From contig JAODBK010000004.1 in NCBI GenBank assembly GCA_025463925.1, positions 62,001 through 126,000 of the forward strand: a stretch of DNA of 64,000 nt, in the 5' to 3' direction. Below are positions 22,920 to 50,272 of this stretch, one piece after another; positions within the stretch are counted from its first letter, which is position 1, and every line of letters starts with the position of its first letter. The translations under genes and the position numbers were made by a program. This DNA is from Acidimicrobiales bacterium (GTDB taxonomy: Bacteria > Actinomycetota > Acidimicrobiia > Acidimicrobiales > AC-14). The notes below the pieces were generated by a model. It had not been told where the DNA came from, made no database searches, and saw only the letters and a program-made list of their open reading frames with translations.

Positions 22920-24639
22920 GGGCGAGGACGGCGCGGCCAAGCGCCGCCGTCGTGGCTCGCGCGGCGGCCGCAACCGCGCCCGCGGCAACGGAACCGCCAA
23001 CGGGGCGGCCGGCGGGGGTGCTGCCGACGGAACGGGGACGCCGCCCGCGACCATGCCGGCGGTGATGCCGGGCGAGATGCTGGGCGCGCCGTCGGCCCGG
23101 CCGAAGATCGGCGACTCGCGGCCGGCGCCGCCGTCTGCTCCGAAGCCCGAACGGGCCGGCGCGCCCGTCGAGGGGACTGGCTCGCCGGCCGCCAAGCGCC
23201 GCCGGCGGCGCGGCGGTCGAGGTCGCAGCAGCAACAGCAGCGGGAGTGGCGGCGGTGGCGCGGGCGCGGCCTCGAGCCCAGTGATGGCCGGCGGCTTCGA
23301 CAACGAGGACGCGGTCGACGTCGACGAGGAGACGCTCGAGCGCCGGCGCGGGCGCGAGCGCAAGGGCCGGCCGGTCGGTCGCTACCTCATGTGCGTGCAC
23401 GTCCGGCCGGACGCGACGCAGATCGCGGTGCTCGAGGGCCGCAACCTGATCGAGCACTACGTCAGCCGGCCGCAGGACGACGCCACCCAGATCCACGGCA
23501 ACATCTACCTCGGCAAGGTCCAGAACGTGCTGCCCGGGATGGAGGCGGCGTTCGTCGACATCGGCACGCCGAAGAACGCGGTGCTCTACCGCGGCGACGT
23601 CCAGTACGACCAGGACGACGTCGAGGAGCGGGGCAACGACAAGGACGTGCGCATCGAGCAGATGCTCCGCGGCGGCCAGACGATCCTCTGCCAGGTCACC
23701 AAGAATCCCATCGGCACCAAGGGCGCCCGGCTGACGCAAGAGGTGTCGATGCCGGGGCGGTTCGTGGTGCTCATCCCGAACTCGTCCACGTACGGCATCT
23801 CCAAGCGGCTGTCCGACGACGAGCGCAAGCGGTTGCGCCGGGTCCTCGACGACGTCAAGCCGGCCGAGCACGGCGTCATCGTGCGGACCGCGGCCGAGGG
23901 CGCCACGCCCGACGAGCTGCGGCGCGATGTGCAGCGCCTCGTCGGTCAGTGGCAGGCGATCGAGGCGCTGGCCGCGCGCACGAGGGCTCCGGCACTGCTG
24001 TACCGCGAGCCCGACCTGGCGGTGCGGGTCATTCGGGAGGAGTTCAACCGCGACTACCGCGGCGTGATCATCGACGACCCGGCCTTGTACGCCGAGGTCG
24101 GCGAGTACGTGTCGGCGCTGATCCCCGAGCTGGCCGAGCGGGTCGAGCTCTACGACGAGCCTGACCTCCCGATCTTCGAGCGGCACCATGTGCACGAGCA
24201 GCTCCACAAGGCGCTCGACCGCAAGGTGTGGCTCCCGTCGGGTGGCTCGTTGATCATCGAGCGGACCGAGGCCTTGACCGTCATCGACGTCAACACCGGC
24301 AAGAACGTCGGCAAGGACAACCTCGAGGAGACGGTGTACCGCAACAACCTCGAGGCGGCCGACGAGATCGCCCGCCAGCTCCGCCTGCGCGACATCGGCG
24401 GCATCATCGTCATCGACTTCATCGACATGGAGATCAAGAAGAACCGCGAGGACGTGCAGCGGGCCTTCAAGGAGGCATTGGCGCGCGACAAGACGCGCAC
24501 GCAGGTGTTCGACATCTCCGAGCTCGGACTGGTCGAGATGACGCGCAAGCGGGTGTCGGAGGGTCTGGTCGAGGCGTTCTCCGCGACCTGCCCCACGTGT
24601 GCCGGCCGCGGCATCGTCCTCGACGACACCTTGCTCTAG
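22792..24639 (+). CDS. rne: Ribonuclease E/G
   Basis: A 615-aa endoribonuclease of the RNase E/G family, acting in mRNA decay and rRNA processing. An intrinsically disordered Pro/Gly/Arg-rich N-terminus spans about residues 1-190. The S1 domain (GNIYLGKVQNVLPGMEAAFVD) begins near residue 240. The catalytic DNase-I-like part has VIDVNTGKN and IIVIDFIDM acidic residues. The Zn-link motif CPTCAGRG is at the C-terminal end. The ATG at 22792 has AAGGA 8 nt upstream, which supports the long overlap with the preceding gene. A 15-bp tandem repeat (22858-22887) encodes PSTTQ twice. Confidence 0.93.
   Translation: MTDQVPGSTEPTETPEPRPPAEPSTTQPSTTQPQPSGRPASPEGEDGAAKRRRRGSRGGRNRARGNGTANGAAGGGAADGTGTPPATMPAVMPGEMLGAPSARPKIGDSRPAPPSAPKPERAGAPVEGTGSPAAKRRRRRGGRGRSSNSSGSGGGGAGAASSPVMAGGFDNEDAVDVDEETLERRRGRERKGRPVGRYLMCVHVRPDATQIAVLEGRNLIEHYVSRPQDDATQIHGNIYLGKVQNVLPGMEAAFVDIGTPKNAVLYRGDVQYDQDDVEERGNDKDVRIEQMLRGGQTILCQVTKNPIGTKGARLTQEVSMPGRFVVLIPNSSTYGISKRLSDDERKRLRRVLDDVKPAEHGVIVRTAAEGATPDELRRDVQRLVGQWQAIEALAARTRAPALLYREPDLAVRVIREEFNRDYRGVIIDDPALYAEVGEYVSALIPELAERVELYDEPDLPIFERHHVHEQLHKALDRKVWLPSGGSLIIERTEALTVIDVNTGKNVGKDNLEETVYRNNLEAADEIARQLRLRDIGGIIVIDFIDMEIKKNREDVQRAFKEALARDKTRTQVFDISELGLVEMTRKRVSEGLVEAFSATCPTCAGRGIVLDDTLL
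22858..22887. repeat. 15-bp tandem repeat, two units
   Basis: CCGTCGACCACCCAG occurs twice head-to-tail. It lies inside the overlap of the TIGR03936 gene and rne and is translated as repeats in both frames (VDHPA and PSTTQ). The length can vary by 5 codons per unit without a frameshift in either gene. Confidence 0.85.
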
Positions 24640-43696: not shown

Positions 43697-44371
43697 TCAG
43701 TCGTGGAGGCCGCACTCCGTCTTCTCCAGGCCGGACCACCGGCCCGAGCGCGGGTCCTCGCCCGGTGCGACCGGCTTGGTGCACGGCATGCAGCCGATCG
43801 ACGGGTAGCCCTGGTCCACCAGCGGGTTGACCGGGACGTCGTGGTCCTTGATGTAGCCGGCGACGTCGAGATCCGACCACGTCGCGATCGGGTTGACCTT
43901 CACCAGGCCGCGCAGGTCGCGGACGACGATCGGCGCCTGGCCCCGCGTCGGTGACTCGGCCCGGCGCAGCCCGCTCATCCACGCTTCCTTGCCGGCGAGC
44001 GCCCGGTCGAGCTGGCCGACCTTGACCGCCGAGCAGCAGTTCTCCGGGTCGATCTTCCAGAGCTCCTCGTCGTGGTGGGCGACGGTCATGATCCGCAGGT
44101 TCAGGCCGTACTTGCGTCGCACGTTCTCGACGGTCTCGAGCGTCTCGGGGAAGTGGTAGCCGGTGTCGATGAAGACGACCTCGATCGACGGCTCGACGTT
44201 CACCGCAAGGTCGATCAACACCGCGTCGGTCATCGACGCGCTGAGGCACAGGTGCGGATGAAAGGTGTCCACCGCCCAGCGGATGATGGTGGACGCGCTC
44301 TCCGTCTCGAAGTGGCGGTTCAGCTCGGCCAACTCCGAGTCGGTGAGGAACGCGGTCTCGGTGATCGTCAT
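43697..44371 (-). CDS. cysH: Adenylylsulfate (APS) reductase, CysH family
   Basis: A 224-aa assimilatory reductase. The cysteine pairs NCCSAVK and GCMPC (with PCTKPV) bind a [4Fe-4S] cluster and mark the APS-using type over the PAPS-using type. The catalytic Cys is in ECGLHD at the very end. The nucleotide-binding LCLSASMTDAVL and VFIDTGYHFPET are typical. The ATG at 44371 has GGAG 9 nt upstream; a TTG at 44386 is possible. Downstream of the sulfite reductase in the same operon, it supplies sulfite. Confidence 0.92.
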   Translation of the reverse strand: MTITETAFLTDSELAELNRHFETESASTIIRWAVDTFHPHLCLSASMTDAVLIDLAVNVEPSIEVVFIDTGYHFPETLETVENVRRKYGLNLRIMTVAHHDEELWKIDPENCCSAVKVGQLDRALAGKEAWMSGLRRAESPTRGQAPIVVRDLRGLVKVNPIATWSDLDVAGYIKDHDVPVNPLVDQGYPSIGCMPCTKPVAPGEDPRSGRWSGLEKTECGLHD

Positions 44372-44387
44372 GGCAGTGGGCTCCAAC

Positions 44388-46187
44388 TCATGAACCGGCG
44401 CACTCGCCGACGCCGACGTCGGCCGAGTACGGACCCGTCTCGTCGAAGTCGACGTAGAAGTCGGGTCGCTCTTCAGGGACGGGGAACTCGTCGAGATCCT
44501 TCAAGGTCGCGCCGACCGCGGCGGCCCCGCCCGAGCGGGCGAGCCAGTCGGCGAACATCTCGCCGGCCTCGCGCTCGTTGGCGAACTGGCCGATCACGCG
44601 GACGGCGGCCGCGCTGGCCGCCTTGGCCGGCAGCCGCAGTGCCTTCTGGCCGAACATCACCTCGGTCTGGCCGACGTAGCCGCCGAGCAGCATCTGGTAG
44701 CCGGGGGCCGAGCGCCCGTGGGCCCGCCGCTCGGCGCCCATGAAGCCGATGTCGGAGATGTGGTGCTGGCCGCACGAGTTGGTGCAGCCGGAGATGTTGA
44801 TGCGGATGCCGCCCACCTCGGCCAGACCGGCCTCCTCGAGCGCTTGGCCGATGTCGGCGGCCAGGCCCCGGCTCTGGGTGACGGCCAGGTTGCAGGTGTC
44901 GGCGCCGGGGCAGCTGACGACGTCGCGCGAGAGCTCGGCGCCGGGCTCGGCCATGCCGATCGCGGCCAGCCGCTCGTGCAACTGCGGCAGCTGCTCCTCG
45001 GTGAGGCCGCTGAACACGACGTTCTGCCGGTTGGTGAGCCGCACGTCGAGACCGAACTCGCGCTGGATCGCGGCCAGCCCGCGGAACTGGACCGACGTCA
45101 CGTCGCCCAGCCGGGCGTAGGCATAGGCCGACACGGTTCCCTTGGCGATGCCGCGCACGACGTTGGCATCCTCCCAGCGCGCGTACGGGTCGTTGTGGCG
45201 GAAGGTGACGTTGACGCCCTGGCCGACCGGCGTCGGTGCGACCGAGGTGGCCAGGCCGGCCGGCGCGTCGCCGAGCTCGGCGACGATCGCCGGGATGCCG
45301 CCAGGCCAGGTGTTCGACGCCCGCAGCAGCTTGCGCTCCTTGAGGATGCGGGCCCGCAGCTCCTCCATGCCCATGGTGTCGACGAGCCACTTCAGCCGGG
45401 CCCGCAGCTTGTTGTCGCGGTTGCCGTAGTGGTCGAAGACGCGCAGCACGGCCTCGATCGTCGGCAGCAGGTCCTCGCGCGCCGTGAACTCCTCGAGGGC
45501 CTGCGCAGGATGCGGGTTGGCGCCGAGGCCGCCGGCGACGAACACCCGGAAGCCGGGCTCGAGGGTGCCATCCGTGTTGGGCCGCATGACGCCGACCACG
45601 CCGACGTCGTTGAACATGGCCTGGCCGCAGTCGGTGGCGCAGCCGCTGAAGTTGATCTTGAACTTGCGGGGCAACCGCTGGCTGTACGGATGACCGAGCA
45701 GGTGACGGAACGTCGCCTCGGCCCATGGCGAGATGTCGAGCGCCTCGAAGGGGCACGCGCCGGCGAGATGGCAACCGATGATGTTGCGCACCGTGTCGCC
45801 GCAGGCCTCGCGCGTCGTCAACCCGGCCGATGCCAGCTCCTTCAGCACCTGCGGCGTGCGCTCGAGCTGCACGAAGTGGAACTGGATGTTCTGGCGCGTG
45901 GTGATGTGGCCCCAGCCGCGGCTGTAGGTGTCGGCGACGTGGGCGAACATCTCGAGCTGCTCGGGTTGGATCGAGCCGTACGGCACCTTCACCCGGATCA
46001 TCTGGTCGTGGCCGCCCTGGCGTTGGCCGTACACGCCGTTGTTGAGGCGGCACAGGCGGAACACGTCCTCGTCGATCCGGCCGGCGAGGTACGCCTCGAC
46101 CTCACCCGTGAACTTGTCGACAGCGGCCGCGATCGTCGGCTCGAGCTCAGGACGATCGGTGGGGCGGGACAGCGTGACGTCGCTCAT
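44388..46187 (-). CDS. Ferredoxin-dependent sulfite (nitrite) reductase
   Basis: A 599-aa siroheme/[4Fe-4S] reductase with two homologous halves. The ferredoxin-type N-terminal part has ITTRQNIQFHFVQ. Cluster ligands are CPGADTC and GCTNSC. Nitrite and sulfite reductases are close relatives; cysH directly downstream points to sulfite, giving sulfide for cysteine synthesis. The ATG at 46187 has a strong AAGGAGG ribosome-binding site. The cysH start region overlaps or abuts its stop. Confidence 0.9.
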   Translation of the reverse strand: MSDVTLSRPTDRPELEPTIAAAVDKFTGEVEAYLAGRIDEDVFRLCRLNNGVYGQRQGGHDQMIRVKVPYGSIQPEQLEMFAHVADTYSRGWGHITTRQNIQFHFVQLERTPQVLKELASAGLTTREACGDTVRNIIGCHLAGACPFEALDISPWAEATFRHLLGHPYSQRLPRKFKINFSGCATDCGQAMFNDVGVVGVMRPNTDGTLEPGFRVFVAGGLGANPHPAQALEEFTAREDLLPTIEAVLRVFDHYGNRDNKLRARLKWLVDTMGMEELRARILKERKLLRASNTWPGGIPAIVAELGDAPAGLATSVAPTPVGQGVNVTFRHNDPYARWEDANVVRGIAKGTVSAYAYARLGDVTSVQFRGLAAIQREFGLDVRLTNRQNVVFSGLTEEQLPQLHERLAAIGMAEPGAELSRDVVSCPGADTCNLAVTQSRGLAADIGQALEEAGLAEVGGIRINISGCTNSCGQHHISDIGFMGAERRAHGRSAPGYQMLLGGYVGQTEVMFGQKALRLPAKAASAAAVRVIGQFANEREAGEMFADWLARSGGAAAVGATLKDLDEFPVPEERPDFYVDFDETGPYSADVGVGECAGS

Positions 46188-46250
46188 GCGAACGCCTCCT
46201 TGACGAGGAGGGAGGGGGAGACGGGGGTCGCGCGCGGGCGCGAGGGCCGG

Positions 46251-46334
46251 CTAGCGAGCCGGACAGGTCTCGTCGAACTCGTGGCGCGTCAGCTCTCCCC
46301 AGGTGTCGTTCTGGACGGCGCGGCCACGAATCAC
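46251..46334 (-). CDS. Candidate 27-aa leader peptide of the sulfite reductase operon
   Basis: A short minus-strand frame from GTG 46334 encodes IRGRAVQNDTWGELTRHE followed by FDETCPAR, ending 63 nt before the sulfite reductase start. It starts 7 nt after a -10-like CAGACT with TTGATT 17 nt further up, so it would be the first thing translated on a leaderless mRNA. The single Cys is four codons from the end, suggestive of a cysteine-sensing leader. The start of the sequence also faintly resembles the N-terminus of DUF934 proteins linked to sulfite reduction. It might be a leader or a small functional protein; conservation was not tested. Confidence 0.5.
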   Translation of the reverse strand: MIRGRAVQNDTWGELTRHEFDETCPAR

Positions 46335-46341
46335 GAGGTGC

Positions 46342-46370
46342 AGTCTGGCATTGCCGACAAAATCAATCAA
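46342..46370 (-). promoter_or_regulatory. Promoter TTGATT-N17-CAGACT of the sulfur operon
   Basis: On the minus strand, TTGATT (46370-46365), a 17-nt spacer and CAGACT (46347-46342) lie in a noticeably AT-rich patch. The leader GTG follows 7 nt later. The patch is the most AT-rich part of the 259-bp gap upstream of the sulfite reductase. The remaining positions up to 46446 show no gene. Confidence 0.5.
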
Positions 46371-46446: not shown

Positions 46447-47795
<1,349 letters not shown>

Positions 47796-47796
<1 letters not shown>

Positions 47797-48275
47797 CAGC
47801 GTGGCACGTCCGCCGCGGCCGTCACCAACGGAATGATGCGGTAGCCGATCTGCTCGGACAGCGCGATCACGGTCGAGGTCCGGCTGATGCCCGCGACCTC
47901 GAGCATGCGGTTGATGACCTGCTGGAGATGCTCGTTGGTCCGGGCCACGACGCGGCAGTGGAGGTCGCCGGGCCCGGTGGTCGCGTGGGCCTCGAGCACT
48001 TCCGGGATGGCGCGGACGTGTTCGACCACGTCCGCCAACCGGCCCTGGGCGATCTCGAGCGTGGTGAACGCCAGCACCTCGTAGCCGAGGGGCACCAGCG
48101 CGACATCGGGTCCGTAGCCGGTGACGATGCCCCGGGCCGAAAGCTTGTCCAGGCGGGCCTGCACGGTGCCGCGGGCGACGGCGAGCCGCCGGGCCAGGTC
48201 CATGACCCCGGCCCGGGGCGTGGTGGCCAAGGCCTCGAGGAGCCGGGCGTCGAGGTCGTCGATCGGGCTGGTCAT
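47796..48275 (-). CDS. Lrp/AsnC-family transcriptional regulator
   Basis: A 159-aa regulator with an N-terminal winged helix-turn-helix ([34 protein letters not shown]) and a C-terminal RAM ligand-binding domain ([20 protein letters not shown]). Family members sense amino acids. The frame extends to 48341, but the ATG at 48275 gives the family start and lies 9 nt after a TACGAT box. It is coupled to DAHP synthase and divergent from the HPPD genes. Inference: it senses an aromatic amino acid or its keto acid. Confidence 0.9.
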
Positions 48276-48378: not shown

Positions 48379-49158
48379 ATGACGATGATGACGGCATCGG
48401 CCGATCTCGCCGCCTTCCGGGCTCGGATCGACGACGTGGTGCACCGCCATCCGGTCGTGGTCGACAACGCCTACACCCGCTGGTTCGCGACCGGCGTCGC
48501 CCGCCGGGACGACGTGCGGCATCTCACCGTGCAGTTCTCGGTGTTCAGCCACCTCTTCGTCGAAGCCCAGCTCCGGAAGGTGATCAACGCCGCCGACCTC
48601 GACACCTACCGGGCCGGCAAGGAGATCCTGATGAACGAGCTCGGCGTGGCCTTCAACGGAGGCGTCGACGAGGAGGGGATCGCGACCGAGGGCACCGTCA
48701 ACGGCAGCCGCTTCAAGTTCACCGCCGCGCACTTCGAGTGGCTGGTGCGCTTCGCCAAGCCGCTGGGCCTCGGTTTCGAGGACCTCGGCAAGCGATGGCA
48801 CGGCACGCCGTCGACCCTGTTCTTCTGTGACGAGCTCATGCGGCTCTACGGAAATGACGACGCGGTCGTTGCCGAAGGCGCGAGCTACGCGGTCGAGAAC
48901 TGGGCCGCCGCCGGCTTCTGGAAAGAGCTGATCGCCGGCTTGCGGGCGTTCAAGACGCGTGAATGCGCAGAGCTGCCGCTCGGCTTCTGGACGTGGCATG
49001 ACAAGGTCGAGGACCAGCACGCGGCCCACACTGCGGACGAGCTGGTCGAGGCGTTCGCAATGCCGGGTTTCGACGGCGAGAAGTTCCTCGCCGGCGCGGC
49101 CGAGATGCTCGACGGTGTGAAGGCGTTCTGGGATGGGCTCGATGCCGACCGTCGCTGA
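48379..49158 (+). CDS. Heme-oxygenase-fold (HDO-like) metalloenzyme
   Basis: A 259-aa helical protein with possible metal ligands in HLFVEAQLRKV, AHFEWL and the C-terminal HDKVEDQHAAHT. These are spaced as in heme-oxygenase-like diiron oxidases and related PqqC/TenA-fold proteins. No heme-binding or thiaminase signature is seen. Its frame overlaps the HPPD gene by 26 nt at most, so the two are co-translated. Inference: it acts on a substrate of aromatic amino-acid catabolism. It is divergent from lrp. Confidence 0.65.
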   Translation: MTMMTASADLAAFRARIDDVVHRHPVVVDNAYTRWFATGVARRDDVRHLTVQFSVFSHLFVEAQLRKVINAADLDTYRAGKEILMNELGVAFNGGVDEEGIATEGTVNGSRFKFTAAHFEWLVRFAKPLGLGFEDLGKRWHGTPSTLFFCDELMRLYGNDDAVVAEGASYAVENWAAAGFWKELIAGLRAFKTRECAELPLGFWTWHDKVEDQHAAHTADELVEAFAMPGFDGEKFLAGAAEMLDGVKAFWDGLDADRR

Positions 49159-50272
49159 CCAACGGGTCGTACCGGCGCCGCGGGCGCAGGCGCTCGGTCT
49201 CCTCGGGTTCGACCATCTCGAGTGGTGGGTCGGCAACGCCCGCGCCTTCGCCGGCTTCCTGTGCTCGGGGTTCGGCTTCGAGGTGGTCGCCTACGCCGGC
49301 CCGGAGACCGGCCGCGACGACCGCATCTCCTATGTCGTCGTGCAGAACGACATCCGGTGGGTCGTCACCAGCCCGCTCGGGCCGGCATCGGCGATCACTG
49401 CCCAGGTCGCGACCCACGGCGACGGTGTGCACGACATCGCGTTGCGCGTCCGCGACGCCGCGGCCGCGTACGACGAGGTGCTGCGGCGCGGCGCCGCCGG
49501 GCTGCGGCCGCCTGAGGTCCTCGACGACCGCGACGGTCGCGTCGTGGTCGCCACGGTCGCGACCTACGGCGACACGCAGCACACCTTCGTCGAGCGATCC
49601 GAGTACGACGGTCCGTTCCTGCCGGGATTCGAGGCGGCGACGTTGCCGCAATCCCCGGGCCCGGTGGTGGGGCTCGACGTGATGGACCACGTCGTCGGCA
49701 ACGTCGAGCTCGGCCACCTCGGCGACTGGGTGGGCTTCTACGAGCGGGTGTTCGGCTTCGACCAGCTCACCCATTTCGACGACGAGCAGATCAGCACCGA
49801 GTACTCGGCGCTGATGTCGACGGTGGTCTGGGACGGCAGTCGCATCGTCATGCCGATCAACGAGCCGGCCCCGGGCCGCCGCAAGAGCCAGATCGAGGAG
49901 TACCTCGACTATTACGGCTCGCCGGGCGTGCAGCACATCGCCCTGGGCACCACCGACATCGTCGCCGCGGTCCGCGCCCTCCGGCAGCGGGGCGTCCGTT
50001 TCCTCGAGGTGCCGGCGGCCTACTACGAGGAGGCCCGGGACCGGATGGCCGGCGTCGACCTCCCGTGGGCCGACCTCGCCGACCTCGGCGTGCTGGTCGA
50101 TCGTGACCATGACGGCCACCTGCTGCAGATCTTCAGCGAGACCGTTGCCGGTCGCCCGACCGTCTTCTTCGAGATCATCCAGCGAGCGGGGGCCCGGGGC
50201 TTCGGCGAGGGCAACTTCAAGGCGCTGTTCGAGGCCATCGAGCGGGAACAGGAACGCCGAGGAAATCTCTAG
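49133..50272 (+). CDS. hppD: 4-Hydroxyphenylpyruvate dioxygenase
   Basis: A 379-aa non-heme iron dioxygenase that converts 4-hydroxyphenylpyruvate to homogentisate in tyrosine degradation. The iron ligands are the His in VMDHVVGNVE, the His in GVQHIALGT and the Glu in VFFEIIQR. The C-terminal gate FGEGNFKALFEAIEREQ is intact. Start could be ATG 49133 or 49142, both inside the preceding gene. No homogentisate dioxygenase is in the window. Confidence 0.93.
   Translation: MGSMPTVADQRVVPAPRAQALGLLGFDHLEWWVGNARAFAGFLCSGFGFEVVAYAGPETGRDDRISYVVVQNDIRWVVTSPLGPASAITAQVATHGDGVHDIALRVRDAAAAYDEVLRRGAAGLRPPEVLDDRDGRVVVATVATYGDTQHTFVERSEYDGPFLPGFEAATLPQSPGPVVGLDVMDHVVGNVELGHLGDWVGFYERVFGFDQLTHFDDEQISTEYSALMSTVVWDGSRIVMPINEPAPGRRKSQIEEYLDYYGSPGVQHIALGTTDIVAAVRALRQRGVRFLEVPAAYYEEARDRMAGVDLPWADLADLGVLVDRDHDGHLLQIFSETVAGRPTVFFEIIQRAGARGFGEGNFKALFEAIEREQERRGNL

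Follow-up and report, generated by a model that had tools for sequence, protein, structure and literature searches.

In the tryptophanase operon, a ribosome near the end of the TnaC leader open reading frame (ORF) controls the access of Rho to the spacer that follows, and it is an excess of the ligand, tryptophan, that is sensed. Short ORFs are also found before sulfur genes in actinomycetes, where they encode the 'RLHVDL' leader peptides. In mycobacteria, leaderless small ORFs (sORFs) containing cysteine codons precede cysA2, Rv0485 and nirA (Shell et al. 2015, PMC4633059); contiguous cysteine codons in such frames have been reported to control the downstream genes through cysteine-dependent elongation or attenuation (Canestrari et al. 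2020, as summarised in PMC9031893 and PMC9094748). CruR (DUF2946) is a conserved, copper-responsive upstream ORF that acts through Rho, sensing copper via a CXXC motif and arresting on a RAPP motif (PMC9426467).

Upstream of a sulfite reductase gene (sir) in the window, as we term the whole 64-kb stretch of DNA that was analysed, lies a 27-codon leader ORF for which the mycobacterial sORFs are the closest known case. Both are short, leaderless, cysteine-containing ORFs with RTG start codons that precede sulfur-assimilation genes, including the sulfite reductase-type nirA. However, the mycobacterial peptides contain runs of cysteine, whereas those described here have one near-invariant cysteine, encoded by UGU, within a motif of 16-20 residues; in addition, masking of the Shine-Dalgarno (SD) sequence is unsupported in these leaders, which belong to a different class of Actinomycetota, the Acidimicrobiia. 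The window peptide has a single cysteine and hence no contiguous cysteine codons; in the absence of a poly-Cys run, these peptides were not assigned to the mycobacterial group. By analogy, the closest published mechanism would be that of CruR, as a conserved peptide working through Rho: in each case the peptide stands at the top of operons sharing one metabolic theme and has cysteine in the nascent chain, and the Rho-dependent termination demonstrated for CruR may also act on the Acidimicrobiia leaders. Nevertheless, CruR differs in its ligand and its sensing and arrest motifs, and Pfam and NCBIfam scans revealed no sequence kinship with it. TnaC has in common a short leader ORF with ribosome-gated access of Rho, as proposed here, but senses excess ligand and has another sequence and codon logic. 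The 'RLHVDL' leaders are comparable in being short ORFs ahead of sulfur genes; an RLHV-type motif was nevertheless rejected, there being no conserved occurrence in the sir upstream regions and no NCBIfam match for either of the two peptide families described below.

The leader ORF and its promoter

The window forms part of a draft genome in 119 contigs, the named relatives of which are mostly Acidimicrobiia. The features of the locus are:

46365..46370, minus strand: -35 element TTGATT, read from the sequence, with a TTGATC box before homologous sORFs in about ten relatives
46342..46347, minus strand: -10 element CAGACT, read from the sequence, with an identical hexamer at locus L120 and TTGACT or TANNNT elsewhere
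46251..46334, minus strand: putative leader-peptide gene of 27 codons with a GTG start, translation VIRGRAVQNDTWGELTRHEFDETCPAR followed by the stop
46334..46332, minus strand: GTG start codon of the leader ORF, read from the sequence
46265..46263, minus strand: TGT, the sole cysteine codon of the leader ORF, four codons ahead of the stop
46253..46251, minus strand: TAG stop codon of the leader ORF, read from the sequence
46201..46250, minus strand: C-rich, G-poor spacer, a candidate rut (Rho-loading) stretch
46195..46211, minus strand: predicted CCUCCU-CGUCA-AGGAGG hairpin over the sir SD, particular to the window genome and unconserved
46200..46195, minus strand: SD of sir, AGGAGG, read from the sequence
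44388..46187, minus strand: sir, the main gene, encoding a ferredoxin-type sulfite/nitrite reductase (Pfam NIR_SIR and NIR_SIR_ferr; NCBIfam)
43697..44386, minus strand: cysH, encoding a (P)APS reductase (NCBIfam PRK02090 over its cut-off; Pfam PAPS_reduct)

The two promoter elements are separated by 17 nt on the minus strand, and a further 7 nt (GCACCTC) lie between the -10 hexamer and the leader GTG. This is the promoter described in the first-pass annotation; though a scan for consensus sigma-70 promoters found none at the locus, CAGACT matching TATAAT at three of six positions, a similar box (TTGATC, 17-18 nt, then TANNNT, TTGACT or CAGACT) is also found upstream of the homologous frames in about ten relatives. 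A 39-aa version of the ORF reaching 46370 was rejected as a real gene, as its TTG start falls within the -35 box. A 63-nt spacer separates the leader stop from the ATG of sir at 46187, and cysH is likely to be the second gene of the sir operon; the upstream neighbour, which ends at 46447, encodes a type II DAHP synthase. The mRNA had been characterised as a leaderless sulfite reductase transcript, which holds for the small ORF but not for sir, as the latter has its own SD.

Across the 52 frames that could be placed, 33 of which start with GTG and 19 with ATG, the RTG codon lies 6-8 nt past the -10 hexamer in 50, a spacing that is partly circular because start and hexamer were picked jointly, and to which close relatives contribute a promoter box near that of the window. 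Such spacing is as expected if the transcripts of the family are leaderless, and lends support to the earlier suggestion that the window frame starts where its mRNA should begin.

Between the -35 and -10 elements, a motif composed of TTGATC, GGAT/GATT and TC[AG]GGAAT is conserved in the window (46370..46342, minus strand) and ahead of most related sir genes, including those without a small ORF. In sequence, this interval looks like the operator of a sulfur regulator. Elsewhere in the window, a 259-aa gene (48379..49158, plus strand), whose match to BesC in NCBIfam is only weak (E = 0.033), adjoins genes for an AsnC/Lrp-type regulator (47796..48275, minus strand) and a 4-hydroxyphenylpyruvate dioxygenase (49133..50272, plus strand).

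Peptide families, genomic contexts and distribution

Two families of peptides, between 27 and 38 residues in length, were distinguished. Family I, the first to be found, was detected in the upstream regions of related sir genes and has 41 distinct members with the motif GAPSIxxGRTPHExxDExC (in its fuller form, VIRxxGAPSIxxGRTPHExxDExCR). Whole-genome searches revealed family II, with the motif NDxWGEL[TS]RxxFDExC (NDTWGEL[TS]RxxFDExC); its 14 members, one of which is the window peptide, consist of 12 from the collected loci and two from a later search. Within the collected loci, all 41 family I and 12 family II sequences, some of them near-duplicates from sister genomes, score above 42 bits, the next match reaching 17.5 bits. 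The window peptide bears the family II motif and is encoded by a short ORF that has a leaderless RTG start and precedes a sulfur gene, and a family II model from which the peptide had been omitted still matched its frame, and no other, in all six frames of the window (E = 3.5e-12; next-best match, E above 3). Hence the 27-codon, cysteine-bearing leader ORF proposed before sir in the first-pass annotation corresponds to a conserved peptide. By contrast, the GAPSIxxGRTPHE core of family I is absent from it, and a family I model made without it, from a reduced set of rows, scores it at 4.2 bits; its assignment to family I, whether directly or as a frameshifted copy, was dropped once family II had been discovered. 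A second family-like match in the window, RADGAPSISPGIT (23061..23099, minus strand), was attributed to chance, as it lies on the strand opposite a long coding frame, which we take to resemble ribonuclease E/G.

Aligned with hhalign, families I and II match over their G...DExC half (16 columns, probability 79%, E = 1.5e-5), which suggests that they are probably related. A Pfam scan of family I, like the NCBIfam scan of both families, gave no match. Taken together, the sequences indicate a real family of leader peptides in Acidimicrobiia, hitherto unannotated and unnamed.

Codons for invariant residues differ freely in their third base, with glycine encoded by GGC, GGT, GGA or GGG, threonine by ACC, ACG, ACT or ACA and proline by CCG, CCC, CCT or CCA, whilst an invariant serine is encoded by both AGC and TCG, in which all three bases differ. 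Such variation in synonymous codons beneath invariant residues argues that it is the peptide itself, including the 27-residue peptide of the window, that is under selection. The conserved residues fall within approximately 18 codons upstream of the near-invariant cysteine, and a consensus-structure test on the coding part found no RNA fold exceeding codon-shuffled controls. A lack of conservation in relatives had been named as the observation that would count against the frame; instead, it is conserved at the protein level in numerous genera and in several sulfur operons.

Nearly all of the leaders are followed by a sulfur gene, mostly sir, with seven or more kinds of sulfur locus represented. 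These include ATP sulfurylase followed by sir (L072), TauE/SafE (L006, L117 and L120), PAPS reductase (L170 and L204), a JAB protease, ThiS-like protein and cysteine synthase equivalent to mec-cysO-cysM (L121), and NMT1/SsuA-like transport proteins (L122, L159, L161, L184, L185 and L187). The genes behind L203 and L131 are exceptions, the latter having no Pfam match. Cysteine dioxygenase-like genes lie directly behind the family II leaders of L158, L183 and L188, where the expected direction of regulation is opposite to that of cysteine biosynthesis. The family II leader of L138 heads an ssuA-ssuB-ssuC-like operon of transport proteins, the last gene of which encodes an Rrf2-family regulator (L138:3248-3733, minus strand), a candidate for the protein acting at the shared operator. 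One contig (L137:4317-6291) has leaders of both families: that of family I lies before mec-cysO-cysM, and that of family II about 1.9 kb downstream, just past cysM and ahead of a gene of unknown function.

Of 298 genomes in a sample of the window's order, 11 contained family I at E<1e-8, a count that includes the window's own peptide, itself a row of the model. Matches, nearly all of them to family I, were present in 32 of 61 relatives of one Acidimicrobiia genome; family II was found in three of 397 genomes of the order sample and nine of 80 relatives of another genome, and samples taken across the phylum produced no match beyond the window's order. The distribution of the peptide is therefore patchy. 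Most related sir genes lack a leader ORF, and some appear to begin right at a similar promoter.

The UGU codon and the C-rich spacer

The cysteine of the DExC motif is encoded by TGT in all 49 members that have it. The cysteine codons of the downstream genes comprise 340 TGC and 17 TGT (Fisher p ~5e-49, shared ancestry being ignored), and the other cysteines of the same sORFs are encoded by nine TGC and one TGT. Four family I members (L007, L181, L182 and L192), all still situated before sir, have serine or aspartate at this site, with the codons AGT, AGT, GAT and GAT. The third codon position is consequently U in 53 of 53 sequences irrespective of the residue, which is cysteine in 49; given that the serine and aspartate codons also end in T, the requirement at this site seems to be for a codon ending in U and read by wobble, with cysteine strongly preferred though not indispensable. 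The importance that the first-pass annotation attached to a cysteine four codons from the end of the leader, a position evident in the window sequence, is thereby reinforced.

C outnumbers G in all 44 spacers between leader and main gene, with a mean skew of +0.30 and a value of +0.42 in the window. At 65 other gene starts, drawn from the window and the fetched loci, the skew was +0.04 and positive in 48%; these starts replaced an initial control of sORF-less sir upstream regions, which was poor in that it contained coding sequence. A C>G stretch behind the leader ORF is what a Rho-dependent leader of the TnaC or CruR type would have, and the window genome possesses a rho gene; the composition is suggestive of Rho-loading sites rather than proof of Rho. 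Nothing terminator-like emerged from a scan for intrinsic terminators near the site, as a classical terminator/antiterminator arrangement would entail, and no Rfam elements were found there. Over 52 loci, the predicted accessibility of the SD matched that of shuffled controls and was hardly altered by placing a ribosome at the cysteine codon, hence SD sequestration was rejected as a general mechanism.

Proposed mechanism and alternatives

The reading that we favour, with a probability of roughly 0.55, is that of a leaderless, cis-acting leader-peptide gene of the sir-cysH operon, in which ribosome pausing at or near the UGU codon gates Rho; it is from the observed layout, conservation, codon bias and C-rich spacer that we infer pausing, cysteine sensing and the action of Rho. 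Transcription would start at the leader GTG. When Cys-tRNA or sulfur is low, the ribosome would pause at the UGU codon or close to it, while the conserved nascent chain occupied its exit tunnel; by covering the start of the C-rich spacer it would keep Rho off, so RNA polymerase would proceed into sir and cysH. When cysteine is ample, the ribosome would complete the leader and expose the spacer, allowing Rho to load and stop transcription early. The leader peptide is thus most likely a sensor through which sulfur assimilation is raised or lowered. However, the leader has only a single cysteine, four family I members have serine or aspartate in its place (albeit with T-ending codons), induction by simple cysteine starvation would be unexpected for the cysteine dioxygenase-like genes behind some family II leaders, and most related sir genes have no leader ORF. 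The cysteine-responsive attenuation suggested by the first-pass annotation may apply, but pure codon counting is doubtful, as the four members without cysteine retain an otherwise intact motif. More tentatively, and at rather less than even odds, the two families may be related nascent-chain sensors of sulfur status in Acidimicrobiia, stalling at a single codon with an invariant final U (UGU) and governing the early, Rho-dependent termination of sulfur-acquisition operons; they would then, just as tentatively, constitute a peptide-plus-wobble-codon sensor instead of a run of cysteine codons.

Two features, the serine and aspartate variants and the occurrence of leaders before cysteine dioxygenase-like genes, would also be compatible with a peptide that senses a different sulfur signal as a nascent chain, or with a protein acting in trans. 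In the former case, the peptide would stall the ribosome in the manner of TnaC or CruR and sense a small sulfur molecule, such as free cysteine, sulfide or persulfide. The strong conservation of residues at tunnel distance from the cysteine codon, the retention of the motif before sir in the variants and the constant third-position U would all be consistent with this; it is possible but unlikely, given that cysteine is nonetheless kept at 49 of 53 sites, and that the position would be less important as a cysteine codon is equally unlikely. Alternatively, in keeping with the tiny functional protein considered in the first-pass annotation, the leader might encode a small trans-acting partner of, for instance, sulfite reductase, ferredoxin or a regulator, its place at the head of sulfur operons being incidental; this would explain both protein-level selection and the variety of main genes. 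Nevertheless, it seems improbable for a peptide of 27-38 residues whose ORF opens the transcript, in a constant leaderless layout and with a C-rich spacer behind it; a free protein would have no need of constraint on the TGT codon, and only around half of the genomes sampled in one clade have the peptide.

A still less probable alternative is classical Cys-tRNA attenuation through refolding of the RNA, with anti-SD or terminator hairpins, similar to that of the mycobacterial poly-Cys leaders. The SD of the window sir is predicted to be buried in the CCUCCU/AGGAGG hairpin, and in three sister genomes (L002, L003 and L112) predicted SD accessibility rises when a ribosome occupies the cysteine codon, an anti-SD immediately following the TGT codon in L002 and L003. 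Yet modelling suggests that a stalled ribosome would leave the window hairpin closed, and neither the accessibility across the 52 loci, the terminator scan nor the fold of the coding part supports refolding. Although GC-rich DNA is rich in short ORFs, 79 of at least 20 aa occurring in the surrounding 8.5 kb, a chance ORF or a translation-enhancing lead-in with a functionless peptide is very improbable in view of the leave-one-out match and the codon pattern, conservation having already refuted the element of chance.

Leaderless leader peptides of sulfur genes thus appear to be present in a class of Actinomycetota far from the mycobacteria, in a form with a single cysteine and a conserved motif. 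That one site should so strictly favour UGU in genomes rich in GC provides a directly testable case of regulation by a wobble codon, within which the serine and aspartate variants allow codon sensing to be separated from sensing by the nascent chain. The family model may also be used by annotation pipelines to recover genes that are currently missed.
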